A program made the position numbers and the translations under genes. A stretch of DNA of 25,179 bases from a virus, in the IMG/VR virus record IMGVR_UViG_3300032893_000263, positions 1 through 25,179 of that record; one strand, given 5' to 3'. Numbering within the stretch: position 1 is the stretch's first letter; each line of letters begins with the position of its first letter. The notes under the pieces were generated by a model. That model made no database searches and had not been told where the DNA came from. It was given only the letters and a program-made list of their open reading frames with translations. Of the stretch, positions 281 through 23,660 are shown in pieces.

Positions 281-311
281 CGTCCACGCGCCGCGTGAAT
301 CTCGTGGCATG
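281..311 (+). promoter_or_regulatory. Repeated YGTCCAC start-linked element, site 1 (terminase)
   Basis: CGTCCAC at 281-287 begins directly after the TAG stop of the upstream gene. A -10-like hexamer GAATCT lies at 297-302, and the ATG of the small terminase is at 309. There are 21 nt between TCCAC and ATG, and no convincing Shine-Dalgarno. This is the first of ten matching sites and is proposed as a promoter giving a leaderless transcript for the packaging genes. Confidence 0.5.
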
Positions 312-791
312 CCGGCGGGACGACCGCGCAAGCCGCGCGCGCTGAAGAAGCTCGAAGGGACCGACCGGAGCGACCGCGCGAACGCGCGCGCGCCGCAGAT
401 CGAGGCCGCGCGGCTGCCACCGGCGCCGAAAGACCTCACCGCGCTCGAGCGCCGCGCCTGGTCGACGCTCGCAAAGGTGGTCGACCCGCTGAAGGTCGCC
501 GCGCCGGCCGACGTCGTCGCGTTCCGGCAGATGGCGGTGAGCCTCGCGATGATCGACCGCGCGCGCGACGAGCTCGAGGAGTACGGCGATCTCACCTACG
601 AGGTCGTCACTGAGACCGGGACGTCGTACCGGAAGCGGCCGCAGGTCGAGATCATCGCCACCTACAAGACGCTGCTCGGGCGCGAGCTCGCGCACTTCGG
701 CCTGACGCCGGCCGACCGCGAGCGCGTCTCGCGCATCGGGGAGGACGGCGCGGCCGATCCGCTCGACGAGTTCGCGGTGGGTGCCGGGTGA
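309..791 (+). CDS. terS: Terminase small subunit (P27 family)
   Basis: This 160-aa protein should be the DNA-recognition subunit of the packaging motor, which binds phage DNA and hands it to the large subunit. The start MPAGRPRKP is a typical opening of P27-type small terminases (a GRP-P motif followed by a basic helix). After it come a helical core with LPPAPKDLTALERRAW (about residues 34-50) and a C-terminal helical region containing the GLTPADRERV motif (about 136-145), a hallmark of the family. A longer frame opens at 237 but overlaps the previous gene; ATG 309 fits both the family N terminus and the upstream repeated element. The gene overlaps the large terminase start by 4 nt (GTGA), so the two are translationally coupled. 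Confidence 0.9.
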   Translation: MPAGRPRKPRALKKLEGTDRSDRANARAPQIEAARLPPAPKDLTALERRAWSTLAKVVDPLKVAAPADVVAFRQMAVSLAMIDRARDELEEYGDLTYEVVTETGTSYRKRPQVEIIATYKTLLGRELAHFGLTPADRERVSRIGEDGAADPLDEFAVGAG

Positions 792-2539
792 CGCGCAAGA
801 AGACCCAGGCGGCCGCCGCGGCGCCCCCAATGGACCCCCACGTCGCGAAGGCGCGCGACTACTGCCTCAAGGTGCTCGCTGGCGAGCTGCCCGCGTGCAA
901 GTTCGTGCGCCAGGCCTGCGCGCGGCAGATGAAGGACCTCGCCCGCGCGAGCTCGAACGACCCTGAGTTCCCCTACTACTTCGACGAGGCCGCCGCCGGC
1001 CGCGCGTGCCGGTTCCTCGAGCAGCTGCCGCACGTGAAGGGCCCGAAGCGAGGCGAGCTGCTCAAGCTCGAGCTCTGGCAGTGCTTCATCGTGACGACGG
1101 TGCATGGGTGGAAGCGCCGCTCGAACGGCTGCCGGCGCTTCCGGCGCGCGTACATCGAGGTCCCGCGCGGCAACGGGAAGAGCTTTCTGCTCTCGGGCGA
1201 GGGCCTGCTCGGGCTCGCCGCCGACGGTGAGGGCGGCGCCGACGTCTACAGCGCGGCCACGACGACCGACCAGGCGAACATCACCCGCGGCGACGCCGAC
1301 GCGATGCTCGTCGCCCGGCCGGCACTGGCGAAGAAGCTGGGGCTCAAGCGCACCACGCACGCCATCTTCCAGCCCGGGACGAACAGCACCTTCAAGGCGC
1401 TCTCGCGCGAGGCGAAGAACCAGGAGGGCAAGAACATCCACTTCGCCCTCGTCGACGAGCTCCATGCCCACCCGACGCGCGAGACCTGGGACGTGGTCAT
1501 CATGGGCGCGGCGAAGCGCACGCAGTCGCTCGTCTGGGCCATCACCACCGCCGGCGTCGACATGTCGGGCATCTGCTACGAGATCCGCGGCGGCGTGGTG
1601 AAGATGCTTGACGGCGCGCCGAACGAGCAGCTCTTCGGCATCATCTACACCATCGACGAGGGCGACGACTGGAAGGCGGAGTCGAGCTGGGTGAAGGCGA
1701 ACCCCAACTGGCACGCGTCCATCGACGTCGACCTGTTCCGCATGGACGCGACCGAGGCGATGCAGACCGCGTCGAAGGAAAACAACTTCAAGACGAAGCA
1801 CCTGAACGTCTGGTGCAACGCCGACGTCGCGTGGATGCAGATGAGCGCGTGGGACGCGTGCGCCGACCCGACGCTGAAGGAGTCGGACTTCGCCGGCCAA
1901 AAGTGCGTGCTGGGGCTCGATTTGGCCAGCAAAGTCGACCTCGCCTCGAAGGCGAAGCTCTTCTTCCGCGACCTGCCGATCCCCGGCAGCGAGCCGGTGC
2001 AGCACGAGCGGCACTACTACCTGTTCGTGCAGAACTACCTCCCCGAGGGCGCCGTCGAGCGGAGCAAGAACGCGCAGTATCCCGGCTGGGCGAAAGAGGG
2101 CCGCATTCGAACGACGCCGGGCGACGTGCTCGACTTCGAGGCGATCAAGGTCGACCTGCGGGCTGACCGCGTGCAGCACCAGGTGCAGGAGGTCGCGTAC
2201 GACCCGTGGCAGGCGCTCCAGCTCTCGAACGAGCTGCAGGGCGAGGGCGCGACGATGGTCGAGCTCGCGCCGAACGTGCAGAACTTCTCCGCGCCGATGA
2301 AGGAGCTCGAGGCGCTGACGCTCACGAAGCGGCTGCACCATACGGGCGACCCCGTGCTCCGCTGGGCGGTGTCGAACGTCATCTGCCACCGCGACGCGAA
2401 GGACAACATCTACCCGCGCAAGGAACGGCCCGAGAACAAGATCGACCCGGTGGTCGCGACGCTCACCGCGCTGAATCGCGCGATGCTCGCGCCTTCGACC
2501 GTGAGCATCTATGAGGGGCGCGGCTTCCTGCAGTTGTAG
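788..2539 (+). CDS. terL: Terminase large subunit (Terminase_1 type)
   Basis: This 583-aa protein is the ATP-driven DNA packaging motor and headful/cos nuclease. The N-terminal ATPase has Walker A PRGNGKS (about residues 126-132), Walker B ALVDE (220-224) and a coupling motif TTAG (about 253-256). The C-terminal RNase H-like nuclease begins near residue 370, with LGLDLA placing a metal-binding Asp at about 378; the next acidic residues are expected around the VAYDPWQ segment. Length is normal for the family. The start is GTG in a GTGA overlap with terS. The segment after the first nuclease Asp reads VDLASKAKLFF and looks slightly drifted from the usual D-x-S/D pattern, but the fold should still hold. 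It acts at the portal vertex during head filling. Confidence 0.95.
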   Translation: MTRKKTQAAAAAPPMDPHVAKARDYCLKVLAGELPACKFVRQACARQMKDLARASSNDPEFPYYFDEAAAGRACRFLEQLPHVKGPKRGELLKLELWQCFIVTTVHGWKRRSNGCRRFRRAYIEVPRGNGKSFLLSGEGLLGLAADGEGGADVYSAATTTDQANITRGDADAMLVARPALAKKLGLKRTTHAIFQPGTNSTFKALSREAKNQEGKNIHFALVDELHAHPTRETWDVVIMGAAKRTQSLVWAITTAGVDMSGICYEIRGGVVKMLDGAPNEQLFGIIYTIDEGDDWKAESSWVKANPNWHASIDVDLFRMDATEAMQTASKENNFKTKHLNVWCNADVAWMQMSAWDACADPTLKESDFAGQKCVLGLDLASKVDLASKAKLFFRDLPIPGSEPVQHERHYYLFVQNYLPEGAVERSKNAQYPGWAKEGRIRTTPGDVLDFEAIKVDLRADRVQHQVQEVAYDPWQALQLSNELQGEGATMVELAPNVQNFSAPMKELEALTLTKRLHHTGDPVLRWAVSNVICHRDAKDNIYPRKERPENKIDPVVATLTALNRAMLAPSTVSIYEGRGFLQL

Positions 2540-2570
2540 CGTCCACGTCCGCGCGTAGCGTCGCCGCATG
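2540..2570 (+). promoter_or_regulatory. Repeated YGTCCAC start-linked element, site 2
   Basis: CGTCCAC at 2540-2546 directly follows the TAG stop of terL. The hexamer TAGCGT is at 2556-2561 (it fits TANNNT) and ATG is at 2568, 21 nt after TCCAC. There is no Shine-Dalgarno between hexamer and ATG. Site 1 has the same arrangement, including the preceding TAG. Confidence 0.5.
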
Positions 2571-2924
2571 GAAAAGCTCCAGCTGGTCGCGCACTTCGCA
2601 GCAGCCATCATCACGAAGCAGATCGAGACCGGGGTCAAACACCCCAGCCCGGCGCTCATCAAGGAAGCGGTCGAGACGGCCGAGGCCGTCGTCGACCAGC
2701 TCGGCGGCGTCCTCGCGGATGACCTCGAGAAGCGCATCACCGACGAGGTCATTCAGCGCGCCGAGCTGGACCTGAAGGTCATCGGCGAAGGCCTGAAGAA
2801 GGCCACGGCCGACTTCAATGCGCGCCTGGCCGCGCTCGAGGCGGCGGTGAAGACTCCGGCGGCCGCAGTGGCTCCATCCACCGGCAGCGCGACCCCCGCC
2901 GGCGCCGACACCTCGAAGAAGTAA
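2568..2924 (+). CDS. Small helical protein between terminase and portal, unknown function
   Basis: This encodes 118 aa that I do not recognise. Residues 1-90 look almost fully alpha-helical with heptad-like spacing (KEAVETAEAVVDQLGG, then DLEKRITDEV), so a coiled coil or helical bundle is likely. The C-terminal tail, about 25 residues, is Ala/Pro/Thr/Ser-rich and probably disordered, ending in DTSKK. It lacks a signal peptide and membrane segment. Its place between terL and portal suggests a packaging or portal-linked accessory, or a small regulator carried as an extra gene. The ATG is fixed by the upstream repeated element. The next gene starts 17 nt downstream. Confidence 0.75.
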   Translation: MEKLQLVAHFAAAIITKQIETGVKHPSPALIKEAVETAEAVVDQLGGVLADDLEKRITDEVIQRAELDLKVIGEGLKKATADFNARLAALEAAVKTPAAAVAPSTGSATPAGADTSKK

Positions 2925-2941
2925 CCGCGGGCCGCTGACCG

Positions 2942-4594
2942 GTGATCAAGGGCCTGTTCGCGTCGTTCCTGAACCTCTTCCGGCGCGGCGATGACCCGCG
3001 CCGGGAGATTCGGTACGCTCTGCCCTACCCGGTCTCCGGGCTCAACCTCACGCCCGACGAGATGCTGTCGGTGGCCGCGGTCTGGGCCTGCATCGACGCG
3101 ATCGCCAGTCACATCGCGAGCTGTCCGTGGAACGTCTACCAGCCGCAGGGCCCGCACAAGAAGACCCTGCTCTACGACGACCCGCTGGCCGACATTCTCA
3201 ACGTCGAGCCGAACCCCGAGATGACCGCGATGGGGTTCCGCGAGTCGATGCTCTTCCAGGGCATCGCGTGGGGCAACAGCTACGCGGAAATCGTCCGCGA
3301 CGGCGGCGGCCGCGTCGCCCAGCTCTGGCCGCTCATCACGAACCGCATGCAGCCCATGCGCGATGAGAAGTGGAACCTCGTCTACCGCTACCGGCAGCTG
3401 GACGGCGAGTACGTCGACCTGCCCGCGAGCAAGGTCTTCCACCTCCGCGGGCCCGGGCTCTACGGGTTGCTCGGCGAGAACGTCGTGGCGCGCGCGGCGA
3501 AGAGCATCTCGGTGGCGGCCGCGCAGGACCGTTACGCGGCGAGCTTCTTCGGCCAGGGCGCCTCACCGAGCGGCGTGCTGAAGCACAAGGGCAAGCTCTC
3601 GAAGGACGCCCAGGACCGCCTGAAGGACCAGTGGGCCGAGAAGAAGAAAGGGCCCGAGAACGCGCACAAGCCGCTCATCCTCGAAGAGGACATGGACTGG
3701 CAGGCCACCGGCCTCGAGCCCGAGAAGTCGCAGCTGACCGAGAGCCGCCAGTACAGCGTCGAGGACATCGCCCGCTGGTTCCGCGTGCCGCCGCACAAGA
3801 TTGGGCACCTGCTCCGCGCGACGTTCAGCAATATCGAGCAGCAGGACATCGAGTTCGTCCGCGGCTGCCTGCGACCGTGGTGCCGGCGGCTCGAGCAGGA
3901 GGCCTCACGCAAGCTGGTCCGACGAGACCGGGCGCCGTACAGGGTCACCGCCATCGATACCCGCGAGCTTGTGAAGGGCGACGCGGCGTCGCGCGCCGCC
4001 TACTACGCAAGCGGCCGGCAGAACGGCTGGCTCAACACGAACGAGATTCGGGCCGAAGAGGGCTACGACGAGATCGGCTCCGACGGCGACGTGTACCTGG
4101 TGAACGGCACGCTCAAGCCCATCGAGGACGTGCTCGAGCCGCCGGAACCGCCGAAGCCCCCGCCATTCCCGGGCGCGCCGGGCAGCCCGCCGGGCCTTCC
4201 GCCGGGCAAGAAGACCCCCGCTCCCGAGGAGTCGAGCGACGATTCCGAGGCGAAGAGCGACGGCCCCGAGGCGCGCACCGTCGCGCGCGCGGCGCTCACC
4301 GTCATTCTCGGCGGAGCGCTCGAGCGCTTCACCCGGCGGCTCGAGAATCGCCGCACCTCATTGAGTGGCAAGCCGAAGGCAGAGGTAGAAGCTGCCATCG
4401 CCGAAGAGCGCACGCGGCTCTGGGGACGGTTGCGCGCCGAGGCCGCCAGCGCCGCGCCTTTCACGACGCTGGTGCTCGGTCGCGACCTGGGGCCTGACGA
4501 TCTGGAGCGCGCTGCCGAGCTCGTCGCCGATGGCACACCAGCCGTCGACGCCGTGCTCAAGGCCCTGCCGGAGACTTGTCCACAGCCCGGGTGA
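2942..4594 (+). CDS. HK97-type portal protein with C-terminal extension
   Basis: This 550-aa protein forms the dodecameric ring at the capsid vertex through which DNA enters and to which the tail is joined. Family features include the WACIDAIASHIAS helix (about residues 48-60), the GNSYAEIVRDGGG wing segment (111-123), the FRVPPHKIGHL motif (280-290), NIEQQDIEFV (297-306) and LNTNEIRAEEG (364-374). The core ends near residue 398. A proline-rich linker follows (399-423), then an acidic Ser-rich stretch and about 110 extra residues that look helical. HK97 portals are usually 400-450 aa, so this extension is notable. The start is GTG with no clear Shine-Dalgarno. The last codons overlap the repeated element used by the protease gene. 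Confidence 0.92.
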   Translation: MIKGLFASFLNLFRRGDDPRREIRYALPYPVSGLNLTPDEMLSVAAVWACIDAIASHIASCPWNVYQPQGPHKKTLLYDDPLADILNVEPNPEMTAMGFRESMLFQGIAWGNSYAEIVRDGGGRVAQLWPLITNRMQPMRDEKWNLVYRYRQLDGEYVDLPASKVFHLRGPGLYGLLGENVVARAAKSISVAAAQDRYAASFFGQGASPSGVLKHKGKLSKDAQDRLKDQWAEKKKGPENAHKPLILEEDMDWQATGLEPEKSQLTESRQYSVEDIARWFRVPPHKIGHLLRATFSNIEQQDIEFVRGCLRPWCRRLEQEASRKLVRRDRAPYRVTAIDTRELVKGDAASRAAYYASGRQNGWLNTNEIRAEEGYDEIGSDGDVYLVNGTLKPIEDVLEPPEPPKPPPFPGAPGSPPGLPPGKKTPAPEESSDDSEAKSDGPEARTVARAALTVILGGALERFTRRLENRRTSLSGKPKAEVEAAIAEERTRLWGRLRAEAASAAPFTTLVLGRDLGPDDLERAAELVADGTPAVDAVLKALPETCPQPG

Positions 4595-4608
4595 CGCTGC
4601 TGGGCGTG
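4577..4608 (+). promoter_or_regulatory. Repeated YGTCCAC start-linked element, site 3 (inside portal 3' end)
   Basis: TGTCCAC at 4577-4583 lies inside the last codons of the portal gene. The hexamer GACGCT is at 4593-4598 and the slot is GTG at 4606, 22 nt after TCCAC. This occurrence overlaps coding sequence, so the element is not just intergenic filler. It favours GTG 4606 over the TTG at 4576 as the protease start. Confidence 0.45.
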
Positions 4609-5472
4609 AACAGAGCGCTCATCAGGGCTGGCATGCTGGCGAACGAGTTCCGGGCCGCACGCGCCGTCTTCAGCGGTACGCCGCGGGGCGCGTACGCGCT
4701 CGCGGTCGTCCAGAAGGCCGAGAAGCGGCCGCCCATCTTCAACGTGGCGGAGGGCACCGACACCGGCGAGCTCTACGTCTATGAGACCATCGGCTTCGAC
4801 TGCTTCGCCGAGAACGGCGGCGTCACGGCGAACAAGGTCAAGGACGCGCTCGCGGAGATGAAGGGCGTGAAGACGCTCAACGTCTTCATCAACTCCGAGG
4901 GCGGCGACGTCTTTGAGGCGAAGAGCATCTACAGCCAGCTGCAGCGCTTTGACGCCGAGAAGGTCGTGCACATCGACGGCCTGGCGGCGAGCGCGGCGAC
5001 GCTCGTCGCGATGGCCGGCGACCGCATCGTCAGCAGCCCGGTCGCGACCTGGATGGTGCATGAGGCCTGGTCGGGGGCGATGGGCAACGCCGCGGACATG
5101 CGCGCGTACGCGGACATCCTCGACCTCGAGAGCCAGAGCATCGCGGACGTCTACGCGAAGCAGACCGGCGGCACGCCGCAGGAGATGCGCGAGCTGATGC
5201 TCGCCGAGACGTGGATGAACGCGCAGCAGTCGCTCGAGAAGGGCTTCAGCGACGAGCTCGCGGGTGACGACGAGGACGACGACGAGAACGATGGCGAGGA
5301 GTCGTCCGAGACGATGAACCGCCCCCGCTCGCCGCTCACCATCGCCGCTGCGGTGACGCAGCAGCGCATCAAGAGCCTTTCGCCGGCGGAGCTGATGGCC
5401 GCCCGCGCCCAGATGCATCGAACGAATCACCCGGGCCAGCCCGGAAAGAAGCGCGAGCCGGCCAGCCGGTAG
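4606..5472 (+). CDS. Prohead maturation protease, ClpP/S14 type
   Basis: This 288-aa protein should cleave the capsid N-terminal scaffold inside the prohead. The ClpP-like fold shows INSEGGDVFEA (about residues 95-105, oxyanion/GG segment), the nucleophile Ser129 in GLAASAAT, His152 in WMVHEAW and a likely third residue Asp173 in ILDLES. The segment ETWMNAQQSLEKGFSDEL (201-218) is typical of the S14 C-terminal part. A run of Asp/Glu follows (about 221-235), then a basic tail of about 50 residues ending in KKREPASR. This tail may act as an extra scaffolding or targeting piece. I chose GTG 4606 from the repeated upstream element; it lies 11 nt after the portal stop. The TTG at 4576 would add 10 residues and overlap portal. 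Confidence 0.9.
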   Translation: MNRALIRAGMLANEFRAARAVFSGTPRGAYALAVVQKAEKRPPIFNVAEGTDTGELYVYETIGFDCFAENGGVTANKVKDALAEMKGVKTLNVFINSEGGDVFEAKSIYSQLQRFDAEKVVHIDGLAASAATLVAMAGDRIVSSPVATWMVHEAWSGAMGNAADMRAYADILDLESQSIADVYAKQTGGTPQEMRELMLAETWMNAQQSLEKGFSDELAGDDEDDDENDGEESSETMNRPRSPLTIAAAVTQQRIKSLSPAELMAARAQMHRTNHPGQPGKKREPASR

Positions 5473-5508
5473 CGCGCGCCCACCCCGCTGCACACCCGAG
5501 AGAACACG

Positions 5509-6909: not shown

Positions 6910-6923
6910 GCCACCCCCGAATC

Positions 6924-7430: not shown

Positions 7431-7451
7431 TCGTCAAGGGAGAGCTCGCCG

Positions 7452-9300: not shown

Positions 9301-9332
9301 TGTCCACGGCCGCCCGTAACGTGCCTCGCATC
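9301..9332 (+). promoter_or_regulatory. Repeated YGTCCAC start-linked element, site 4 (tail tube), slot is ATC
   Basis: TGTCCAC is at 9301-9307, the hexamer TAACGT at 9317-9322 (good TANNNT match), and the slot at 9330, 22 nt after TCCAC, reads ATC rather than a start codon. The gene really starts at ATG 9353 with its own GGAGG. The spacing is kept although no start codon is there, which points to transcription start rather than translation. Confidence 0.5.
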
Positions 9333-9352
9333 TCGACGGAGGCACCTGCACG

Positions 9353-9793
9353 ATGACGACGAAGGCGACCAGCACCAAGGGAGTGAAGCTCCAGCGCGGC
9401 GACGGCGGCGGCCCGGAGACGTTCACCACCATCGCAGAGGTCCTCTCGTTCAAGGGCCCCAGTGAGAAGGCGCCCCAGCTCGATGCGACGAGCTTCGACA
9501 GCGTGGCGATGGAGTTCATCGCCGGCCTGCCCGACAACGGAGAGATCACCGCCGAGGTGCAGTACGTCGGAAGCGACGCCCAGCAGCAGGGCCTGCGCAC
9601 GGACCTCCGCAACGGCACGAAGCGGAACTTCAAGCTCGTGCTGAACGACAGCCAGGGCGTGCAGCCGACCACCGTGAGCTTCGCCGCCATCGTCACCCAG
9701 GCCCCCGAGCTCGGCGGCGCGGTGAACCAGGTCATCAAGGGCTCCATCTCGCTCCGCATCAGCGGCCAGGCGACCTGGAGCTACGCGGCGTAA
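9353..9793 (+). CDS. Major tail tube protein
   Basis: This 146-aa protein is the likely tail tube subunit (lambda gpV-like N-domain group). It begins STKGVKLQRGDGGGPETFTT and continues IAEVLSFKGPSEKAPQLDATSFDS, the recognisable pattern of siphovirus tube proteins (a small beta-sandwich with a loop containing D-x-T/S). Later it has GEITAEVQYVG and the closing strand GSISLRISGQATW. Length is close to other short tube proteins without an Ig-like C-terminal domain. The ATG has the strong ACGGAGG ribosome site 12 nt upstream. High expression is expected, consistent with its own promoter-like element. Confidence 0.9.
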   Translation: MTTKATSTKGVKLQRGDGGGPETFTTIAEVLSFKGPSEKAPQLDATSFDSVAMEFIAGLPDNGEITAEVQYVGSDAQQQGLRTDLRNGTKRNFKLVLNDSQGVQPTTVSFAAIVTQAPELGGAVNQVIKGSISLRISGQATWSYAA

Positions 9794-10674: not shown

Positions 10675-10961
10675 ATGGTTGGCGGGAGCACTACCTGCGC
10701 CGGCCGTTCGGCTTCGCCGCGGCCGATGCGCGACACGCCATTCTCTGTTCAGTGATTGCCGCGGTCGGAGGCGGCCAGATCGACCCGTCGAAGTTCATGC
10801 TCGGCGCGCCCCGCGCGACGCCAGAGGTTGAGCCCGAAGACGAGCTCATCGCGTTCCTGAAGAAGAAGCTCCCGCCGGCGCCGACCACGCTGCAGGTGAA
10901 GACCGGCCCCGAGGGCGGCATCAACTTCGAGCAGTCCACGCCCGGCGCGTCCACAGGCTGA
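10575..10961 (+). CDS. Tail assembly chaperone, -1 frame (gpT-like) segment
   Basis: My own reading of the -1 frame gives REFEYELCLALGWPHPDY near 10590, then LREFLTVQQLNGWREHYL, RRPFGFAAADARHAILC and SVIAAVGGGQIDPSKF. This is the tail assembly protein T pattern (W, RRPFG and the D-x-R helix). No ATG or GTG occurs in this frame before 10752, which lies in the middle of the domain. The product should therefore be made by -1 frameshifting from the 10246 gene, giving a fusion 10246-10961. No canonical X_XXY_YYZ heptamer is present. Candidates are AAAGAAG (10527-10533), TCCCT (10559-10563) and CCCG (10575-10578). The left boundary given is approximate. Confidence 0.78.
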   Translation, partial: PGEAEREFEYELCLALGWPHPDYLREFLTVQQLNGWREHYLRRPFGFAAADARHAILCSVIAAVGGGQIDPSKFMLGAPRATPEVEPEDELIAFLKKKLPPAPTTLQVKTGPEGGINFEQSTPGASTG

Positions 10962-10979
10962 GAGAGGCTGAACGACATG
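10933..10979 (+). promoter_or_regulatory. Repeated YGTCCAC start-linked element, site 5 (tape measure), tandem
   Basis: The full site is CGTCCAC at 10948-10954, GAGGCT at 10964-10969 and ATG at 10977, 22 nt after TCCAC. A second half-copy AGTCCAC lies at 10933-10939, 15 nt upstream. Both sit inside the last codons of the chaperone frame. This is the only junction with two copies of the upstream box. The sequence GAGAGG also resembles a ribosome site for the tape measure gene. Confidence 0.45.
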
Positions 10980-13658: not shown

Positions 13659-14495
13659 GTGGGCTGGCTCGCCATCATGGGCGTCGACCTCTCGGCCATC
13701 GCCGCGACGGTCCAAGACCCGAAGGGCGACCGCCGCGACATCGGCGAAATCAGCCCGGCGAACGACGGCACGATGCGGGCGACACGCCAGTCGCGGAAGC
13801 ACGACCTGAGCCTGCTGAGCATTCCGCTGAGCAGCTCCGACGCGTACGCGTGGGAGTCCCTCGTCGTCGGCGAGGGGCACTGTTGGAGCTTCGACACGAG
13901 CTTCTACAGCTCGAAGGGCTACGGGCCGACCGTCAACACCGGCTGCACCATCGACAGCTCGATCCCGCCGATGTTCGGAGCCGGTTACGCCATCGTGCCG
14001 GCGACGACCGGCGTCCTCACGTATTCGAGCGCGTTCCTCAACTCGAGCAGCGTGCTCGGCGCATGGACGTTTCTCGTGTGGAAGTACGAGAGCGGCAACT
14101 GGCACCACTACGTGCTCCGCAGCGACGGGGCGAAGTGGAAGGACGGCGTGCGAAACGACGGGCTGTCGACGACGTGGTTCCAGACGAACCTGAACGGCTT
14201 CCGCCTCATCAACACCACCGGCTCCGAGATGGACTTCGACGACGCCGTCGCCCTGCCCTTCAAGGCCTTGGACACCTGGCCGGCCCTCATCTACGCGTAC
14301 CAGCTCGCGAACATCGTCCCATTCTCGTCTCTGCCGTATCTGACCTGCTCAGGCGACCTGGTCCCCGAAGCGGCGACCCGGACCATGATCGGCAAGTGCG
14401 CTGTGGCGAAGGTGCTGCGCGGCAACCCCACGGGCGTCGCCGGCGGAGCCTCGAAGGCCGTGCAACAGCTGCAGGTCGACCTGCAGGAGCGCTGA
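13659..14495 (+). CDS. Tail tip protein of unknown family (distal tail position)
   Basis: This encodes 278 aa; I do not recognise a family. It opens with a short hydrophobic segment (GWLAIMGVDLSAIAATV), then beta-rich sequence with many aromatic residues (CWSFDTSFYSS, then AWTFLVWKYESGNWHHYV). The middle repeats the LamG/lectin-like look seen in phage tip proteins (GVLTYSSAFLNSSSVLGAWTF about residues 121-141). Its place right after the tape measure is where distal tail or hub-adaptor proteins are encoded. The start GTG directly abuts the tape measure TGA. The stop is 1 nt before the next GTG, so all three are likely coupled. Confidence 0.75.
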   Translation: MGWLAIMGVDLSAIAATVQDPKGDRRDIGEISPANDGTMRATRQSRKHDLSLLSIPLSSSDAYAWESLVVGEGHCWSFDTSFYSSKGYGPTVNTGCTIDSSIPPMFGAGYAIVPATTGVLTYSSAFLNSSSVLGAWTFLVWKYESGNWHHYVLRSDGAKWKDGVRNDGLSTTWFQTNLNGFRLINTTGSEMDFDDAVALPFKALDTWPALIYAYQLANIVPFSSLPYLTCSGDLVPEAATRTMIGKCAVAKVLRGNPTGVAGGASKAVQQLQVDLQER

Positions 14496-14496: not shown

Positions 14497-17268
14497 GTGC
14501 GGACCATCACCGCGGCGCAGCAGGGAGTGCTCGACAACGGCAACCAGGCCGAATGGGTGCGCGTGCAGACGAAGGACTCCGGCGGCACCTGGCGCGACCT
14601 GACGACATACCCCGGTTTCAACGCGGTGAAGAGCGTCACATGGACGGAGCAGATCGACCAGCCGCACGCGACGTTCACCGTCGAGCTGTACCGCGAGCTC
14701 TACCTGCTCAGCCTGTCGCCATACGTCACCGCGTCGGCGCTGAACCGCGGCTTCAACCCGGCGGCCAGCTACGCGGCCCTGCTAGCGGTGAACCGCGAGC
14801 TGAAGATTGAAGTCGCCATCGTCCCGATGGACATGAAGCCGAGCTCGGGCGACTGGTTCGAGGTCTTCCACGGACGCATCGACACGCTCGACCCGGGCAA
14901 GAGCGAGACGGTGGAGCTCGCTGGGCGCGATCTCGGCGGCCGCCTCGCCCAGCAGTACATCAAATACGAGCGCGTCTATTCGCTCGCGGCGACCGGCGGG
15001 AACCCCGTCGCGCTGCGCGTGTGGGAGGCGAACCAGGTCTACGCGTTGAACGAATACCTGCTGCCGGCGAGCCGAGGCGACTCAGATCCGGGGCTGGACA
15101 AGTTTCTGAAGTGCAGCCAGGCAGGCACCAGCGGCACAACGGAGCCTGTCTGGACCACCGGATCTGCACAGGTCGACGGCACAGCGAAGTGGGACTATGT
15201 CGGGGCGCCGATCCCCGGCGTGGGCCAGGCCGTCGAGGGGATCATGCAGAACCTGCTCGACGACAACAAGGCGGCGAGCGACCCCTCGGTGACGCTGTAC
15301 ACGCCGACGAGCCCGAGCTGGGCCATCACCGAGTACATTCAGCAGCGCGAATTCACCCTCGACGCGCTGCGCGCCCTGGCCCAGCAGATCGGCTGGGACG
15401 TCCGGTACAAGTGGCGTTCCGGGACGTCGCAGTTCGAGCTCACGTTCTACCAGCCGACCCGCACCAGCCCCTCGGTGGACTTCACCTTCGGCCCGAGCGA
15501 CTACGAGACGCCGACCCAGCTCAAGGTCGACATCGCGACCATCCGCAATTCGATCCGCGTCTGGTATGGCGACGCGTCGGATCTCTGGCCGGACGGCACG
15601 CCGAAGCGCAAGGTGGTCGAGGTCAGCGACTCGAGCTCCATCACGAAGTACGGCGAGCTGTGGATGGAGATCCAGGAGGACCAGACCTCGCAGATCAACT
15701 CGTCGACGGAGGCGAACACGCTCGCGAACGCGGCGCTCTCCGACCTCAAGGAGCCGACCGCCGAGCTCGACGTCCCGCTGTGCCGCGGTTTCCCGTGGGT
15801 CGAGCTGAACGACTACTACACGTTCTCCGCCAATGACCTGCAGTTCGATGCGGACCAGTCGCTCGCGGTGGTGCAGTTCCAGCACACCAGCCAGGGCGGA
15901 AAGGGGCTGAAGACGACGCTGCAGACGCGCGGGCTTCCGACCATCGGCACGCGCTCTCACCTCGACAAGCGCGTGAATCCGAAGGTGCCGCCGAAGTTCA
16001 GGCCGCACCAGCAGGTGCAGTACAACGGGGCCAAGACGCCAGCGCTGTCGAACTCGAGCGTCGTCGGCGGTCAGCATCTGCTGCTCACCCAGACGTTCGA
16101 CAAGAACCAGCTGCCGGAGGAGTACGAGCACCACGTCTACCCGTCGTCAGGCACCACGCTGAGCTCGAGCACGCTCGCGGCGATCACCAGGGACCGGCAC
16201 TTCACGCCGGCTCACCTCATCGCGGGCAAGCAGTACTACCACCGCGTCGTGCCGCGGTACCGAAACGCGGACCGGCTCGTTCGCATGCAGCCGAGCATCG
16301 AGCAGGGCTTCCTCGCCGGGCGCGCGTTCGCGAATCACATCACCGACGGCATCGCGCTCGGTAGCTACCCGCTCAACGGCGGCTTCGAGACGCGCCAGGA
16401 CACGTCGGGCTTCCCGGACTGGTGGACGCCGAACGTTGGCACACTCGGCGTCGATTTCGCCGTGATGGAGGACGGCAACGGCATCAGCGGCGGCCGCTAC
16501 ATGAAGATCATCAGCAACGGGAGCACGAACCCCGAGCTGCTGAGCGCTCAGCTTCCGATCACCAACGAGAGCGCGAGCGGAACGCGGCTCTCCGGGCAGT
16601 ACCGCTTCCGCGCGATGGTGAAGACCGACGGCGCCAACGTGTCGGGCGGCGACAACCTCTGGATTGCCTGGAAGGGCGTCGACTACGCGGGCGTGTACCA
16701 CGGCGAGAACGGGCTCTTCTCGGTCGCGTCGGACTCGAACCCAGGGATCTGGTCCTTCGTCAGCTCCGCGGGCAAGTTCGGTTTCAGCAGCACCCGGAGC
16801 GTCTACATCCGTGTCTTCACCGACCACGCCGGCGCTCACCACGGGCAGACCTTCTACATCGACGAGCTCCGCTTCGATTACATCGGCACGAGCTGGTACG
16901 TCGTAAACGTCGGCGGCGGGGCCATCTGCGACTCAGGCGAGGCGATCCCGAACTTCGCAAACGGCTGGCAGGACGCGAGCCAGGACGACGCGCCCGACTG
17001 CTATTACAACGTCCCGGGCTTCCGCCGCGACGTGACCGGCTACATCGAGATTGTCGGCCGCGTGAAGAGCGGCGCCATTGGCGACGTGCCCATCTTCACG
17101 CTTCCGGCATCCTTCCGACCCCTCGTCACGCAGGACTTCGTCGTGATGACGGACCAGGGACCGGGCTGGCTCCAGGTCCAGCAGTGCGGCGACGTCTGCC
17201 TGCGCGCCGGAAGTGACGGCTGGGTCGACTTCGGCTACCTGCGCTTCCCAACGTTCCCATACACCTGA
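14497..17268 (+). CDS. Tail hub/tip protein with carbohydrate-binding-like C terminus
   Basis: This 923-aa protein is probably the central tail tip protein. The N-terminal 170 residues look like a hub domain (WTEQIDQPHATFTVELYREL, then WFEVFHGRIDTLDPGK). An inserted module at about 174-237 has WEANQVYALNEYLLP and GTTEPVWTTGSAQVDGTAKW, a short beta module common in phage fibres. The hub resumes to about 470. A fibronectin-like stretch lies near 540-600 (GKQYYHRVVPRYRNADR). A jelly-roll, CBM-like domain at about 624-801 starts YPLNGGFETRQDTSGFPDWW and ends TFYIDELRFDYIG. The last 110 residues have the tip pattern VPIFTLPASFRP and WVDFGYLRFP. Start is GTG with GGAG upstream. It likely binds host surface glycans; that is inferred from the domain look. 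Confidence 0.85.
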   Translation: MRTITAAQQGVLDNGNQAEWVRVQTKDSGGTWRDLTTYPGFNAVKSVTWTEQIDQPHATFTVELYRELYLLSLSPYVTASALNRGFNPAASYAALLAVNRELKIEVAIVPMDMKPSSGDWFEVFHGRIDTLDPGKSETVELAGRDLGGRLAQQYIKYERVYSLAATGGNPVALRVWEANQVYALNEYLLPASRGDSDPGLDKFLKCSQAGTSGTTEPVWTTGSAQVDGTAKWDYVGAPIPGVGQAVEGIMQNLLDDNKAASDPSVTLYTPTSPSWAITEYIQQREFTLDALRALAQQIGWDVRYKWRSGTSQFELTFYQPTRTSPSVDFTFGPSDYETPTQLKVDIATIRNSIRVWYGDASDLWPDGTPKRKVVEVSDSSSITKYGELWMEIQEDQTSQINSSTEANTLANAALSDLKEPTAELDVPLCRGFPWVELNDYYTFSANDLQFDADQSLAVVQFQHTSQGGKGLKTTLQTRGLPTIGTRSHLDKRVNPKVPPKFRPHQQVQYNGAKTPALSNSSVVGGQHLLLTQTFDKNQLPEEYEHHVYPSSGTTLSSSTLAAITRDRHFTPAHLIAGKQYYHRVVPRYRNADRLVRMQPSIEQGFLAGRAFANHITDGIALGSYPLNGGFETRQDTSGFPDWWTPNVGTLGVDFAVMEDGNGISGGRYMKIISNGSTNPELLSAQLPITNESASGTRLSGQYRFRAMVKTDGANVSGGDNLWIAWKGVDYAGVYHGENGLFSVASDSNPGIWSFVSSAGKFGFSSTRSVYIRVFTDHAGAHHGQTFYIDELRFDYIGTSWYVVNVGGGAICDSGEAIPNFANGWQDASQDDAPDCYYNVPGFRRDVTGYIEIVGRVKSGAIGDVPIFTLPASFRPLVTQDFVVMTDQGPGWLQVQQCGDVCLRAGSDGWVDFGYLRFPTFPYT

Positions 17269-17272
17269 GCGC

Positions 17273-17304
17273 TGTCCACGAGCAGCGGGAGCCTGCCGCC
17301 CATG
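17273..17304 (+). promoter_or_regulatory. Repeated YGTCCAC start-linked element, site 6
   Basis: TGTCCAC is at 17273-17279, four bases after the TGA of the hub gene. The hexamer GAGCCT is at 17289-17294 and ATG at 17302, 22 nt after TCCAC. GGGAG at 17287-17291 could act as a ribosome site at a long distance (10 nt). Confidence 0.5.
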
Positions 17305-18525: not shown

Positions 18526-18528
18526 CGT

Positions 18529-18560
18529 TGTCCACGCTCGGGCGGAGGCTGCTCGGCATG
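18529..18560 (+). promoter_or_regulatory. Repeated YGTCCAC start-linked element, site 7
   Basis: TGTCCAC is at 18529-18535, three bases after the TAG stop. The hexamer GAGGCT is at 18545-18550 and ATG at 18558, 22 nt after TCCAC. GGAGG at 18544-18548 could also serve as a ribosome site, 9 nt from ATG. Confidence 0.5.
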
Positions 18561-18899: not shown

Positions 18900-18901
18900 A
18901 G

Positions 18902-20785
18902 ATGCTGAAGCTCCTCGGCGCGCTCGTGCTGGCGCAGGCCTCGCTCGAGGGGCCGATCTTCACGAACCCGGCCCTGTTCGGTTCTCCAGTCTTCGAATTC
19001 GCACCGACGAGCGGTGCGGGCATGAGCGCGGCGTGCGCGGGTGTGACGCCCACGGGCTCGAAGGGCGAGGCGCTCACCTGGGGCGGTCGCACCGGCTCGG
19101 CGACGTGTCTCAAGACCGCCGGGAGCTCGCCGCAGCTCATCGCGAACGGCGATCTGGTGACGCTCTCGACGAACCAGCTCCGCGTGATGCCCGGGGCCGA
19201 CGGGACGACCGTCCTCGGAATACTCGTCGAGCCTGCGGCCACGAACGTCGCGATTCGTTCTCAGCAGATTGACAACGCCGCATGGTCGCCTGCGAACTCG
19301 GGCGTTGCGGCGCCGACCGTGACCGCCGATCAGGCCGTCGCGCCCGACGGGACGACGACCGCGGAGCGCGTGCAGGTTCCGGCGACTACGGTCGCAGGGG
19401 GTCAGTACAGCTTCGTTTACAATTCGACGTCGTCAGTGAACCCAGGCTCGGGTCAGATCTTTCTGCGCGGTAATGGGACGTCGGGAACAGTCGACCTCGC
19501 TCAGTACGGAAACGGAGGTTGGCACGCCGTAGCCTGTTCCTATGTTTCGACGGGCTGGACCCTCTGCCTCAACGAGAATCAAGGAGCCTTCGGCGCGCCG
19601 ATGGGGGCCATCGGCATCGGAAACTTCAGCGGCCTCGCCATCGTCGGCGGGGTCAACCGAGGCGCGCAGGATGTTTTCGTGTGGGGCGCACAGCTCGAGC
19701 AGGGCGCCCGCGCTTCGAGCTACATCGCCACGACGAGCGCCGCGGTGACGCGCAACGCGGAGCCTCCGCCGTACGCGACCACGAAGGTCGCGATCAGCGG
19801 GAGAGCTACGATCGCCGCCAGCTTCATCGCGCCCAACGCAGGGCACGCGGCGAACGACGGAGTCGTGGGGCTGTCGCCGACATCGTCGCCGAGCGACGCG
19901 GCCTCCATCGGGATCGAGTACGACGCGACCGGCAGCGTAGGTTGCTTCAGGCAGGCTTCCGACATTCCGACGTACACGTTCGACGCGCTCGGCCTCGGCG
20001 GCGTTCAGAGCACCGTTGACCGAGTGTGGTGCGCCACGTCGGGCGCGAGCGGCAACTTCTACGGCAAGCTCACCGCGTTCTACACGACCGCGGTCAAAGG
20101 TTTCGACCTCGCGTCGTCAAGCGTCGTCGTGCTCGGCAGCTGGTCGACCGCGGCGCCGCCGCTTGGCGGTGTACTCAAGATGGTCTGCGCCGACCCGACC
20201 TTATGCGCCGGCGGCGCGCTGCCGGGCACGAGGGTCGCCTGGGACGGAGACTCGATCGTCTACGGGTACCCGCAGGTCACGACTTCGCCCGCCGTCGAGC
20301 TCTCTCAGCTGATCGGCTCTCAGGGCAAGATCGTTTCCGACACCGGCGAGAACGGCGACCGCGCCCTCGACTGCTACAACCACTGGACGGCGAGAATTCA
20401 GGGGCGCGGGTTCTCGACTTTGATCTGGAGCTGCGCAGTCAATGACATGGTGGCAGACGCCACGGGAGCGGCGACGGCCGCACAGGTCGAGACGGCGCTG
20501 ACGGCGGCGCTCGCGGACGGCGAGCAGGTGATCGTCACGGGGATCTCGCCGTGGAAAAACTCCCCCAACTGGACATCAGGCCGGCAGACTCAAACGGATT
20601 CGTACAACTCGCTGATTTCGGCGTGGGCGGGCACGCATGGGGTCGCCTATGTCGACCCGTCTCCGATGGGCGGCCAAGGTGGCGACCCGGCTGTCTTGCT
20701 CTCGGCGTACAGCTACGATCTGGTCCACTACTCACCGGCCGGGCAACTTGAGTTTGCCCAGCTCGTTCAGGCGAAGAACCCATGA
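18902..20785 (+). CDS. Tail fibre/spike with C-terminal SGNH (GDSL) hydrolase domain
   Basis: This encodes 627 aa. The N terminus MLKLLGALVLAQA-SLEGP resembles a signal peptide with an A-x-A cleavage site. Residues about 85-250 carry a known phage fibre pattern: LGILVEPAATNVAIRSQQ, then APDGTTTAERVQVP, with a lectin-like sandwich behind it. A second sandwich follows (about 290-430). From about 440 an SGNH hydrolase begins: VAWDGDSIVYGYP with nucleophile Ser451, Gly in SDTGENGD as the probable block II, CAVND with Asn514, and DLVHYS with Asp606 and His609. Such domains deacetylate or de-esterify surface polysaccharides, so a capsule or O-antigen modifying enzyme on the tail is likely. The start overlaps nothing; the stop overlaps the next ATG (ATGA). 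By eye, more A/T-ending codons occur here than in head genes. Confidence 0.85.
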   Translation: MLKLLGALVLAQASLEGPIFTNPALFGSPVFEFAPTSGAGMSAACAGVTPTGSKGEALTWGGRTGSATCLKTAGSSPQLIANGDLVTLSTNQLRVMPGADGTTVLGILVEPAATNVAIRSQQIDNAAWSPANSGVAAPTVTADQAVAPDGTTTAERVQVPATTVAGGQYSFVYNSTSSVNPGSGQIFLRGNGTSGTVDLAQYGNGGWHAVACSYVSTGWTLCLNENQGAFGAPMGAIGIGNFSGLAIVGGVNRGAQDVFVWGAQLEQGARASSYIATTSAAVTRNAEPPPYATTKVAISGRATIAASFIAPNAGHAANDGVVGLSPTSSPSDAASIGIEYDATGSVGCFRQASDIPTYTFDALGLGGVQSTVDRVWCATSGASGNFYGKLTAFYTTAVKGFDLASSSVVVLGSWSTAAPPLGGVLKMVCADPTLCAGGALPGTRVAWDGDSIVYGYPQVTTSPAVELSQLIGSQGKIVSDTGENGDRALDCYNHWTARIQGRGFSTLIWSCAVNDMVADATGAATAAQVETALTAALADGEQVIVTGISPWKNSPNWTSGRQTQTDSYNSLISAWAGTHGVAYVDPSPMGGQGGDPAVLLSAYSYDLVHYSPAGQLEFAQLVQAKNP

Positions 20786-21057
20786 ACGGAACACGCGCAG
20801 CGATCGCAGCAGCAGCACTCGCCACCGCCGGGGTCGTGGGGCTCGTCGCCAACCGCAGCAGCGCCCCGACGTACACGAGGCCGTGCGTGCGCGCGCCGCT
20901 CGATGGCGGCACGGACTGCCTGCGCAACGACGGCATCAGCGGTCCGCGCTTTTTCGGCACGGGCAACGTTTTCCCTGCCTCCCAGGCGACCGGCTCGAAC
21001 TGCGAACAGGTCGAGTGCACCGTCGTGTACGGCGAAGACCCCGACGAGACGCTCTGA
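20782..21057 (+). CDS. Small exported or membrane-anchored protein, unknown function
   Basis: This encodes 91 aa. A hydrophobic Ala-rich segment near the N terminus (about residues 6-23, AAIAAAALATAGVVGLVA) follows MNGTR and could be a signal peptide or a single membrane anchor. The remainder is polar with four Cys (RPCVR, TDCLR, NCEQ, VECTV) and an acidic end. No family is recognised. It begins in an ATGA overlap with the SGNH fibre gene, so it is made with it and may work with it. Confidence 0.72.
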   Translation: MNGTRAAIAAAALATAGVVGLVANRSSAPTYTRPCVRAPLDGGTDCLRNDGISGPRFFGTGNVFPASQATGSNCEQVECTVVYGEDPDETL

Positions 21058-21061
21058 GCCC

Positions 21062-21092
21062 TGTCCACGCCCTCGCGCATTCTTTGCGCGTG
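21062..21092 (+). promoter_or_regulatory. Repeated YGTCCAC start-linked element, site 8 (lysis module)
   Basis: TGTCCAC is at 21062-21068, the hexamer CATTCT at 21078-21083, and the slot is GTG at 21090, 21 nt after TCCAC. There is no Shine-Dalgarno. The site marks the start of the lysis block and picks GTG 21090 as the start of a frame that stays open far upstream. Confidence 0.5.
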
Positions 21093-21428
21093 GCCAGCGA
21101 GCTGACCCCAGCACAGGCGATGGAGCTGCGTGGTGAGCTCGAGGAGCTGAAGCTCCGCGTCAACGGCCTCGAGTCGCGCATCGCAGCGGCAGAGCTGAAG
21201 CAGCGAAACGACCTCGACCAGGTCAACCAGCAGATGACCGCACTGGGGCGCGAGCTCGCCGCCCTGCGGGGCAAGGTGGGCGACCTCGAGTCGCTGCTGC
21301 GGGCGAACCACTACGCGCAGATCCACCTCTGGGGCGTGACGGCCCGCCTGCTGAAGCTGCCGGACGCCGAGATCGACTCCGCCCAGCAGCATGCGCGCGC
21401 CATCTTCGACGGAGCGACCCGTGGCTGA
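21090..21428 (+). CDS. Coiled-coil protein at the head of the lysis module
   Basis: This encodes 112 aa. Residues about 5-70 form a long charged coiled coil (ELRGELEELKLRVNGLESR, then LKQRNDLDQVNQQMTALGREL, then KVGDLESLLRAN). The C terminus has a short amphipathic helix (HLWGVTARLLKLP). There is no signal peptide or membrane segment. The frame is open for 450 nt upstream across the fibre genes, but GTG 21090 is chosen because the repeated element puts its slot exactly there and coding pattern begins there. It might be a fibre-shaft or a lysis accessory; neither is shown. It overlaps the next gene by 8 nt. Confidence 0.75.
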   Translation: MASELTPAQAMELRGELEELKLRVNGLESRIAAAELKQRNDLDQVNQQMTALGRELAALRGKVGDLESLLRANHYAQIHLWGVTARLLKLPDAEIDSAQQHARAIFDGATRG

Positions 21429-21894
21429 ACGCCCAACCCCCAAGAGCGTCTCGCTCGCCGACCACGGCGTCGTCGACATGCTGGACGCGCGCACGCCGGC
21501 GCATGGGCTCGCGACGCCGCCGTATGTCGAGCGGAAGGTCGCCGAGGCCAAACAGGAGACCCTCGCCGAGGCGGTGAAGGCGAAGATCGCAGCGTGGGTC
21601 GGCGCCGGCGTGCTCTCGGCCGTGACCCTGGCCGGGGTGGCGTTCGCGTACGACAAGCTCGAGGACCGCGCGAAAGACGCCGGCACCGCGGCCGCGAAGA
21701 CCGAGGTCGGTGAGCTCAAGAAGACGGTCGAGGCTGACCATGCCGTGCTCGAGATCGTGCGCAAGGAGCAGGCGCACCAGAGCGATTCAATCAGCGAGGT
21801 CCAGACGGACATTCGCGCTCTCTACAAGGCGGTGCTCACCGGTCAGCGCCAGGACCGGCTCGAGCGCCCAGTTACCCATGATGGAGGTCTCTGA
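21421..21894 (+). CDS. Single-pass membrane coiled-coil protein (lysis accessory candidate)
   Basis: This encodes 157 aa. A polar N terminus of about 50 residues is followed by one membrane helix (about 56-76, KIAAWVGAGVLSAVTLAGVAF) and a charged coiled coil of about 70 residues (VGELKKTVEADHAVLEIV and later QTDIRALYKAV). The shape resembles XhlA-type or inner-membrane spanin-type proteins but with the anchor in the middle. GTG 21421 is preferred because GGAG lies 6 nt upstream. An ATG at 21391 would add 10 residues. It overlaps the preceding gene by 8 nt and is coupled to the lysin gene (TGATG). Confidence 0.75.
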   Translation: MAERPTPKSVSLADHGVVDMLDARTPAHGLATPPYVERKVAEAKQETLAEAVKAKIAAWVGAGVLSAVTLAGVAFAYDKLEDRAKDAGTAAAKTEVGELKKTVEADHAVLEIVRKEQAHQSDSISEVQTDIRALYKAVLTGQRQDRLERPVTHDGGL

Positions 21895-22448
21895 TGAGCG
21901 CTCGCGACGTCGCACTGGCATGGGCCCGCACGCAGCTCGGCGCGCCGGTCCTGATGGGCTACCGCGGCGATCTCCGCTTCGACCGCGAGCTGCGGCACCT
22001 GGTGCCCCACGAGCTCGGGCTCCTGGTCTGGGACTGCTCAGGCTACGTCGGCGGCGGCATCAAGGCAGCGGGTGGCCCGGACCTCCGCGGCACCCACAAC
22101 GCACAGAAGTACCATGACGACATGCGACCGCTCGGGCCCGGCGAGATCGTGCTTCCCGGCGACTGCGTCTTCTATGGGCTGACCGGCCCGACGGACGTCG
22201 AGCACGTCGTGTTCTGGGCCGGCAGCGTCGACCCCGTCGGCGGGGCGCCGGCGCCGCTCCCCACCTGGTGGCAGGGGCACGTGCTCTCCGCTGACGGAGC
22301 GACGCACGCCATCACCGACCTGGCCGTCGCCAAGGCGAAGGGCTGCATCGTGCGCGAGCACGACCGCGTGCTGTACCGCGGTGACTGCAAGTACGTCGTG
22401 GCAAGAAGAAATATCTTTCTGGACCGCCTCGACGGCATCGAGCGCTGA
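21894..22448 (+). CDS. Endolysin, NlpC/P60-type cysteine peptidase
   Basis: This encodes 184 aa and should cut peptide links in peptidoglycan at the end of infection. The catalytic Cys48 sits in WDCSGYVGGGIKAAGG, the standard NlpC/P60 motif (D-C-S-G), and His104 in DVEHVVFWAG follows at the expected distance. The third polar residue may be His129 in WWQGHV. Between them GPGEIVLPGDCVFY matches the usual L-x-PGD segment. There is no signal peptide, so it needs a holin or similar route. ATG 21894 overlaps the previous stop (TGATG), with GGAGG upstream. A virion-associated lysin is the alternative, but the membrane-protein neighbours favour host lysis. Confidence 0.88.
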   Translation: MSARDVALAWARTQLGAPVLMGYRGDLRFDRELRHLVPHELGLLVWDCSGYVGGGIKAAGGPDLRGTHNAQKYHDDMRPLGPGEIVLPGDCVFYGLTGPTDVEHVVFWAGSVDPVGGAPAPLPTWWQGHVLSADGATHAITDLAVAKAKGCIVREHDRVLYRGDCKYVVARRNIFLDRLDGIER

Positions 22449-22451
22449 GGC

Positions 22452-22483
22452 TGTCCACAGGCGGGGGGAGGCTGTTGCCCATG
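22452..22483 (+). promoter_or_regulatory. Repeated YGTCCAC start-linked element, site 9
   Basis: TGTCCAC is at 22452-22458, the hexamer GAGGCT at 22468-22473 and ATG at 22481, 22 nt after TCCAC. GGGGGGAGG lies before the slot and could be a ribosome site 9 nt from ATG. The element chooses ATG 22481 over the TTG at 22475. Confidence 0.5.
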
Positions 22484-23383
22484 CGACGAATCGACCTCAC
22501 CCGCGCATCGTTCGTGCTGTCGGCCCTGATGCTGCTCGCCGCGCTGAAGCTGGCGCTGCTGCTGTTCCTGCCGGCAGTGGCGTTCGCCCAGTCGCCAGGC
22601 GTGCCGCCGGCGGCGGTGGACCCCACGCAGCTGCTCGCGCAGATCTTCGACGCCGTTCACAACGGCAACGGCTGGCTGGCCGCGGGCCCGGCGCTCTCGC
22701 TCGTCGTATGGGCGCTGATGAAGTACGACAAGAGCATCCCGAAGGTCGGCCCGGCCATCGACGGGTTCCTGAACCAGCCCCTGGTCGCATTCATGCTGCC
22801 GGCGGTGCTCTCCGCGGCGACAGGGCTGTTCGGCGCGCTCGCTCAGCACCAGGCCATTGGGCCGGCGATGCTCACCTCGCTCAAGGTCGCGGCGCTGGCG
22901 GCGTTCACGTTCCTTGGGCTCAAGAACGCGGCGGAGCAGTCGAAGACCGCGCCAACGCCGGAGGTTCCGCCAGCGGCGCCGAAGCTGCTCGTGCTGGCGC
23001 TCGGCCTCTCTCTGCTTGGTGGTTCCCTGCAGAGCTGCACGCACGTCGAGCCGCTGCTCGTCACGAAGGACACCATCGTCGGCGCCGACAAGACGTTCCT
23101 TGCCACGCGCGTGGTGATGAAGGGCCTGCAGCCGCAGCTCTCGCCGGCGATGTGGCAGAGCTGGCTCCTGTTCGAGCAGCGGTTCGCGACGTCGTTCCAC
23201 GCGGCCCGCGTGCTCTACGAAGACGCCGAGGCTGCAGAGGAGCTCGCGGTGCAGGCTGACGGCGGCACCGCGCAGGCGAACCTCCGGGCGGCGGAGCAGA
23301 TCGCCGGCAGCCTCATCGCCCAGCTCGGCTACTGGGAGGGCGTCGAGGCCCAGCTGCTTCACCCCGATGGAGGTCACCCGTGA
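22481..23383 (+). CDS. Multi-pass membrane protein, possible holin fused to outer-spanin-like part
   Basis: This encodes 300 aa. A signal-like first helix (about residues 10-36, ending AVAFA-QS) is followed by hydrophobic segments near 64-80, 99-121 and 128-147, a Pro-rich linker (155-167), and another hydrophobic segment (169-183) ending in GGSLQSC, with Cys186 in a lipobox-like setting. Residues 187-300 are soluble and mainly helical. The first half thus resembles a holin, and the second half resembles a lipoprotein-type outer spanin. No standalone start is obvious for the second half: the GTG at 22993 lacks a good ribosome site. A single fused membrane protein is possible. It directly follows the lysin and is coupled to the next small membrane gene. 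Confidence 0.75.
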   Translation: MRRIDLTRASFVLSALMLLAALKLALLLFLPAVAFAQSPGVPPAAVDPTQLLAQIFDAVHNGNGWLAAGPALSLVVWALMKYDKSIPKVGPAIDGFLNQPLVAFMLPAVLSAATGLFGALAQHQAIGPAMLTSLKVAALAAFTFLGLKNAAEQSKTAPTPEVPPAAPKLLVLALGLSLLGGSLQSCTHVEPLLVTKDTIVGADKTFLATRVVMKGLQPQLSPAMWQSWLLFEQRFATSFHAARVLYEDAEAAEELAVQADGGTAQANLRAAEQIAGSLIAQLGYWEGVEAQLLHPDGGHP

Positions 23384-23625
23384 TGATTCTCAACGCAATC
23401 GTCGCTCTCGCGCCGTACGTGCTGCAGCTGCTGGCGATGGTGCCCGGCTTCGCGAAGACCATCGCGCAGTTCAAGGCCGACATCAGCGGGCACCCGAACC
23501 TCACCGCCGACCAGAAGGTGCAGGCGCTGCGCGACGCGAAGGCTGAGGTCGCCGCCGCCGATGCCGAGGTGCAGGCCGCGGTCGCCGCGGACCTGCCAGA
23601 GCCGAAGCCCACCGCGCCAGGCTGA
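23380..23625 (+). CDS. Small membrane protein, holin or inner spanin candidate
   Basis: This encodes 80 or 81 aa. The N terminus is hydrophobic (MILNAIVALAPYVLQLLAMVPGF, about 22 residues), followed by a charged helix with the pattern QKVQALRDAKAEVAAADAEV and a Pro-rich end. It could start at GTG 23380 (GTGATG, overlapping the upstream TGA) or ATG 23383; GGAGG lies 6 or 9 nt upstream respectively, so both fit. One membrane segment plus a coil is the layout of inner spanins and class III-like holins. The partner would be the lipobox-like protein encoded just upstream. Confidence 0.75.
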   Translation: MMILNAIVALAPYVLQLLAMVPGFAKTIAQFKADISGHPNLTADQKVQALRDAKAEVAAADAEVQAAVAADLPEPKPTAPG

Positions 23626-23627
23626 GC

Positions 23628-23660
23628 TGTCCACAGGGCCTGCTTATCTCCTCACCCATC
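23628..23660 (+). promoter_or_regulatory. Repeated YGTCCAC start-linked element, site 10, slot is ATC
   Basis: TGTCCAC is at 23628-23634, a hexamer TATCTC/TTATCT around 23644-23650, and the slot at 23658 reads ATC, 23 nt after TCCAC. The real start is ATG 23666, 8 nt further on. Like site 4, the spacing persists where no start codon fills the slot. Confidence 0.45.

Follow-up and report, generated by a model that had tools for sequence, protein, structure and literature searches.

At the middle promoters of phage T4, the MotA box, (a/t)3TGCTTtA, is centred at −30, 12±1 bp from an excellent TATAAT; this phage box replaces the −35 element, pairs with the −10 hexamer and recurs before many genes (PMC2988021). 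At PhoB promoters, the activator binds over the −35 element or in its place, at a strict spacing from the core promoter (PMC3348028, PMC10294691). In the leaderless genes of Deinococcus-Thermus, a −10 element lies 6–7 bp from the start codon, and the mRNA is leaderless (PMC12340547). Finally, the start-associated sequence (SAS) of the cluster K mycobacteriophages is a repeated, asymmetric sequence found at many phage genes in one orientation (PMC3203893). In these respects, each of the four systems resembles the two-part DNA element described here.

The window, i.e., the whole stretch of DNA analysed, is a linear virus record of 25,179 bases that carries the late genes of a tailed phage: the small and large terminase subunits, portal, protease, major head protein and connectors, together with the major tail protein, the tape measure and more tail and virion genes. 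A comparison with 50,697 annotated phage records turned up no near relative of this phage. The large tail protein encoded at 14497–17268, which is conserved in the phage group, also has no match in those records.

As the first-pass annotation had reported, the octamer YGTCCACR occurs at ten positions, all on the plus strand and all at gene junctions (Table 1), and an exact pattern search of the window finds none on the minus strand. The eight slots described as ATG or GTG can indeed be annotated as start codons, and the other two (9330 and 23658) both read ATC, with the gene starts at 9353 and 23666. The distances of 21–23 nt given from the box to the slot have the right values, but the part that varies is the position of the start codon, and it is the spacing between box and hexamer that is fixed. 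The hexamer begins 16 nt from the box start in nine of the ten copies, while in the exception, 23628, the T is in register and the A is displaced by one. Most boxes lie directly 3′ of the preceding gene's stop codon (281 and other junctions), so that promoters at these sites would be packed into nearly gapless gene joints; two overlap the 3′ end of the upstream frame, which is the portal gene at 4577 and an open frame at 10948.

Table 1. Positions of the ten elements and of the first late genes in the window.
Feature	Position	Strand	Box	−10-like hexamer	Slot or start codon	Gene or remark
Element 1	281-311	+	281-288 CGTCCACG	297-302 GAATCT	ATG 309	terminase small subunit
Terminase small subunit	309-791	+				starts at element 1 slot
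Terminase large subunit	788-2539	+				late-gene context
Element 2	2540-2570	+	2540-2547 CGTCCACG	2556-2561 TAGCGT	ATG 2568	118-aa gene between terminase large subunit and portal
Portal protein	2942-4594	+				alignment used as query for held-out relatives
Element 3	4577-4608	+	4577-4584 TGTCCACA	4593-4598 GACGCT	GTG 4606	head maturation protease; box within final codons of portal
Element 4	9301-9355	+	9301-9308 TGTCCACG	9317-9322 TAACGT	slot 9330 ATC; ATG 9353	major tail protein, after a leader with GGAGG
Element 5	10948-10979	+	10948-10955 CGTCCACA	10964-10969 GAGGCT	ATG 10977	tape measure
Element 6	17273-17304	+	17273-17280 TGTCCACG	17289-17294 GAGCCT	ATG 17302	
Element 7	18529-18560	+	18529-18536 TGTCCACG	18545-18550 GAGGCT	ATG 18558	
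Element 8	21062-21092	+	21062-21069 TGTCCACG	21078-21083 CATTCT	GTG 21090	
Element 9	22452-22483	+	22452-22459 TGTCCACA	22468-22473 GAGGCT	ATG 22481	
Element 10	23628-23668	+	23628-23635 TGTCCACA	23644-23649 TTATCT (A off by one)	slot 23658 ATC; ATG 23666	virion structural protein

By count alone, YGTCCACR reaches about twice the chance level (10 copies against 5.25 in shuffles, with 4 of 100 shuffles reaching 10), and GTCCAC by itself is not enriched in the window (19 against 15.5). The composite GTCCAC + N10 + A + N3 + T occurs nine times on the plus strand and never on the minus strand, as compared to 0.1 per shuffle. The strength of the observation comes from strand, place and context rather than from the box count.

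Related contigs were collected from IMG/VR with a DNA pattern scan and protein scans. In the first relatives, G001 (37 kb), G004 (42 kb), G005 (20 kb), L034, L048 and L097, the coding-strand junction boxes follow the rule of the window. Later relatives, L121 and L123–L128 (L124 being nearly identical to L123), came from a scan with the portal alignment that was run after the rule had been fixed. In these held-out relatives, the A and T are in register at 15 of 16 coding-strand GTCCAC sites and at none of 13 on the opposite strand (Fisher p=2e-7). The total is 47 copies in 13 phages, the window and twelve uncultured relatives, with the consensus N-GTCCAC-N-N8-KANNCT: GTCCAC and the T at “−7” (+21) are present in all 47 copies, and the A at “−11” (+17) in 46. 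Nearly all of the copies were found using the box alone. However, those in G001, G004, G005 and L097 were picked partly for their fit to the A/T rule, and a degenerate copy (G004r 24523) was found by a weight-matrix scan; the held-out test is therefore the cleanest.

An unbiased ranking of hexamers at sites with the A, T and start codon in register places GTCCAC at the top or joint top of the plus-strand hexamers in the window, G001, G005 and G004, and at the top on neither strand of nine other contigs tested. The first-pass annotation had also named an outcome that would refute it, a box equally common inside genes or on the opposite strand. This test was run on the window, the twelve relatives and the Myxococcus phages Mx8 and Mx9, and its result is favourable: in the window's phage group, the composite is confined to the coding strand, lies at late-gene junctions and is missing from the early regions of two relatives. 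One could still see nothing regulatory in the boxes, only chance combined with gene ends inherited from a common ancestor, given the modest box count and the boxes that overlap coding ends such as that of the portal. This explanation, already disfavoured, is hardly credible in the face of the held-out result, of spacer letters that vary around a constant box, A and T, and of the presence of the element at about a dozen non-homologous junctions as well as in the unrelated Mx8 and Mx9.

The element persists at homologous junctions. At the element 2 junction, between terminase and portal, it is also present in L034, G005, G004, L121, L123 and L125–L128, and at the element 3 junction, between portal and protease, in L034, L048, G005, L121, L123 and L125–L128; the two are equally persistent in the portal-type relatives. 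The major-tail-protein junction carries it in eight phages (the window, G001, L048, G005, G004, L121, L125 and L097), among which the identity of the tail protein to the window version drops to about 45%; here the start-codon offset is 47 to 66, with a Shine-Dalgarno (SD) sequence, in most phages and 31 in L097. Element 5, at the tape measure, has counterparts in G001 and G005, a junction similar to that of element 7 carries the element in G001, G004 and L097, and the elements homologous to element 9 are G001 16227 and G004r 24523. L001–L006, known as relatives only by their terminase (≤56% identity), are without the element, which thus does not follow the terminase gene. When an altered box was sought de novo in L098, L100 and L101, none emerged. 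Pattern matches in L031 and L033 (GC 60% and 36%) are likely due to chance, with one site each where we estimate that about 5 would be expected.

What does the element do? In a −10 element, the A at −11 and the T at −7 are the two most important positions. The sigma-70-type −10 feature, A at position 2 and T at position 6, is met in 46 and 47 of the 47 copies, respectively. The hexamer description in the first-pass annotation holds in that the A and T positions are kept in nearly all copies, but the usual form is GANNCT, not TANNNT, position −12 being usually G rather than T. No sigma-70-type −35/−10 pair with 16–18 nt spacing was found at the element junctions, and 5′ of the box, conservation over the 47 copies nowhere exceeds 0.45 bit and, beyond −33, 0.25 bit. 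The A and T at −11 and −7, a start codon or leader beginning 6–7 nt further on, the lack of conservation at −35 and the fixed distance to the box fit an activator-dependent promoter. Our proposal, made with considerable confidence, is that the element serves as a phage-specific promoter of late transcription: a factor would bind at about −28 to −21, there would be a −10 but no −35 element, and the mRNAs would be mostly leaderless. There are no RNA data, and the start sites, the factor and the timing are inferred.

In the proposed mechanism, a phage-encoded factor on the non-palindromic YGTCCACR, at about −28 to −21, would replace the −35 contact, while RNA polymerase would contact the −10 hexamer (KANNCT, with A −11 and T −7 nearly invariant). 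Transcription would begin about 6–7 nt 3′ of the hexamer. In most cases this is where the start codon begins, and most of the mRNAs made from the element would thus be leaderless. Element copies before separate late genes would each boost the following block of virion genes once the factor has been made. The factor-dependent, leaderless promoter of the first-pass annotation thus stands as far as promoter geometry, strand and late junctions go, but two of the ten window copies are not leaderless, and the starts and the factor remain inferences.

Alternatively, box and hexamer could act in the mRNA as a translation-initiation signal, guiding the ribosome or an RNA-binding protein to the start codon. 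Most start codons do lie at offset 28 or 29, and GAGG or GGAGG, present within the hexamer of about a dozen copies, could pair with 16S rRNA. However, we consider this role improbable, because start codons occur at offsets of 28 to 66 whereas the box-to-hexamer spacing is fixed, and because copies with a leader have an SD of their own. If the slot holds no start codon, a leader of 47–66 nt with a clear SD usually follows, and the SD is strong in 7 of 7 leadered copies (mean −8.0 versus −5.2 kcal/mol, p=0.003). Moreover, the invariant hexamer positions are the A and the T, not the Gs, and several slot-start copies are without any SD, although the SDs of the window's slot-start genes overall are not clearly weaker than those of other genes. 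The hexamer region reads AGAGGCT or GGAGGCT at 10948, 18529 and 22452. Hexamers of the GGAGGCT type are numerous and may double as an SD in read-through mRNA, and such a role cannot be excluded.

The spacing of the proposed promoter looks different from that of known bacterial and phage promoters. Of the analogues that the first-pass annotation named, the T4 middle promoters come nearest in their logic, whereas SAS and stoperator sequences are absent. The element differs from T4 in that its box is centred at about −24.5, with 8 bp between it and the KANNCT hexamer (9 if counted from the last C that is invariant), and in that it would drive late virion genes. There is no TGCTTtA at 12±1 bp from the −10 element, as all 47 copies have GTCCAC and just 8 nt separate the 8-nt box from the hexamer, and no MotA or AsiA match was found among the scanned early proteins of G001, the window being incomplete. 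The box resembles a pho half-site (CTGTCA type); the pho box consists of paired direct repeats, whereas the element has no conserved second half-site, and no upstream repeat was found at shifts of 7–23 in the 47 copies. The L5 stoperator, with the consensus GGTGGMTGTCAAG, gives 7 matches at 3 mismatches against 10.6 expected. In Deinococcus-Thermus, the signal is the −10 motif itself and serves host genes genome-wide, while the element adds a fixed upstream box and serves phage late genes only (PMC12340547). Unlike the element, the SAS, GGGATAGGAGCCC, directly adjoins the start and is tied to translation initiation (PMC3203893); in the window, it has two matches with 2 mismatches, on the minus strand only and within chance. 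To take over the host RNA polymerase from an activator site just 8–9 bp away from the −10 hexamer would be unusual.

As a sub-case that overlaps the late-promoter reading, an alternative sigma factor of host or phage could recognize the element with unusual spacing and no separate activator. The rigid two-part layout resembles sigma recognition, and Mx9 encodes a sigma-70-family protein (p55; L134 27052–27744). However, the 8–9 nt gap is about half of the usual 16–18, the sigma-54 pattern of GG at −24 and GC at −12 occurs in 0 of 47 copies, and the Mx9 protein has no homologue in the element-bearing Mx8, G001 and G004, which rules out this sigma factor as the common reader. We regard this sub-case as unlikely.

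The closest match of the G001 integrase is that of Myxococcus phage Mx8 (37%, 2e-44). The virion genes of Mx8 and Mx9 are mostly unrelated to those of the window, but each phage has two conserved copies of the element, one at the terminase operon and the other at p64 (Mx8) or p14 (Mx9, annotated as a putative tail fibre). The latter ends exactly at the ATG, at offset +28, and 5′ of it the two phages diverge, leaving a conserved block that is, by eye, of promoter size. The composite is not enriched by count in Mx8 and Mx9, and the two copies are distinguished by position and conservation only. Myxococcus phage Mx4 has no coding-strand composite. A review of Mx8 and the Mx9 paper do not mention promoters, no description of Mx8 late control was found in the searched literature, which leaves out most subscription journals, and a literature search for GTCCAC was uninformative. 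A search for hosts via prophages, in which 84,980 genomes were scanned with the portal and tail proteins, yielded just two distant Firmicutes matches. The hosts of the window's phage group are probably myxobacterial, an inference from the integrase and Mx8/Mx9 alone. The element thus offers a rule, read from sequence, by which late genes can be recognized in a soil phage group that is little known, and it ties this group to Mx8 and Mx9.

Which protein reads the box? The early regions of G001 and G004 are without the element, and its first copy precedes the gene for an HNH endonuclease, with which the late block begins. Directly 5′ of this copy, both phages encode a zinc-finger protein with an invertase-type helix-turn-helix (HTH; phrog_125, 1e-6). 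In the same place, Mx8 (p41) and Mx9 (p69) encode a related but shorter protein that shares the finger (phmmer about 1e-4; hhalign E 4.5e-6). We tentatively suggest that this small zinc-finger protein is the factor binding the box; the suggestion rests on position and weak homology only, and binding is unproven. It is, on balance, probable that the candidate is irrelevant and that the box is bound by a host factor or by some different early protein, a question of the reader's identity only. The family is small and matched only at the weak E-values given above, the HTH tail is absent from Mx8 p41, and G004 has a second zinc-finger gene, adjoining its small terminase gene; yet in four phages, which belong to two structural types that are otherwise unrelated, the candidate gene immediately precedes the first late element. 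The candidate was not seen in the window's own record, which is incomplete, Mx4 has no convincing homologue, and an AlphaFold model (pLDDT 56) is too poor for comparison.

A speculative extension, in which we place equally little confidence, is that the small p41-type zinc-finger protein binds YGTCCACR at about −25, within the usual spacer, and redirects the host RNA polymerase. This would define an undescribed class of myxobacterial-phage promoters, which lack a −35 element, give mostly leaderless late mRNAs and are common to phages whose virion genes are unrelated. A testable candidate for a late regulator is thereby named in the laboratory phage Mx8.

Two further observations concern other genes. 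Near the contig end of IMGVR_UViG_3300046791_000578 (L093), a second p41-like zinc-finger frame at 13872–14117 (−) abuts the small terminase gene and sits beside the zinc-finger/HTH gene that precedes the HNH gene. In addition, L047 (1868–3985, −) and L087 (18458–20362, −) carry two early genes that are conserved as a pair, encoding a fusion of ParB_N with MT-A70 and a HerA-like ATPase; G004 shares this pair at about 61% identity.
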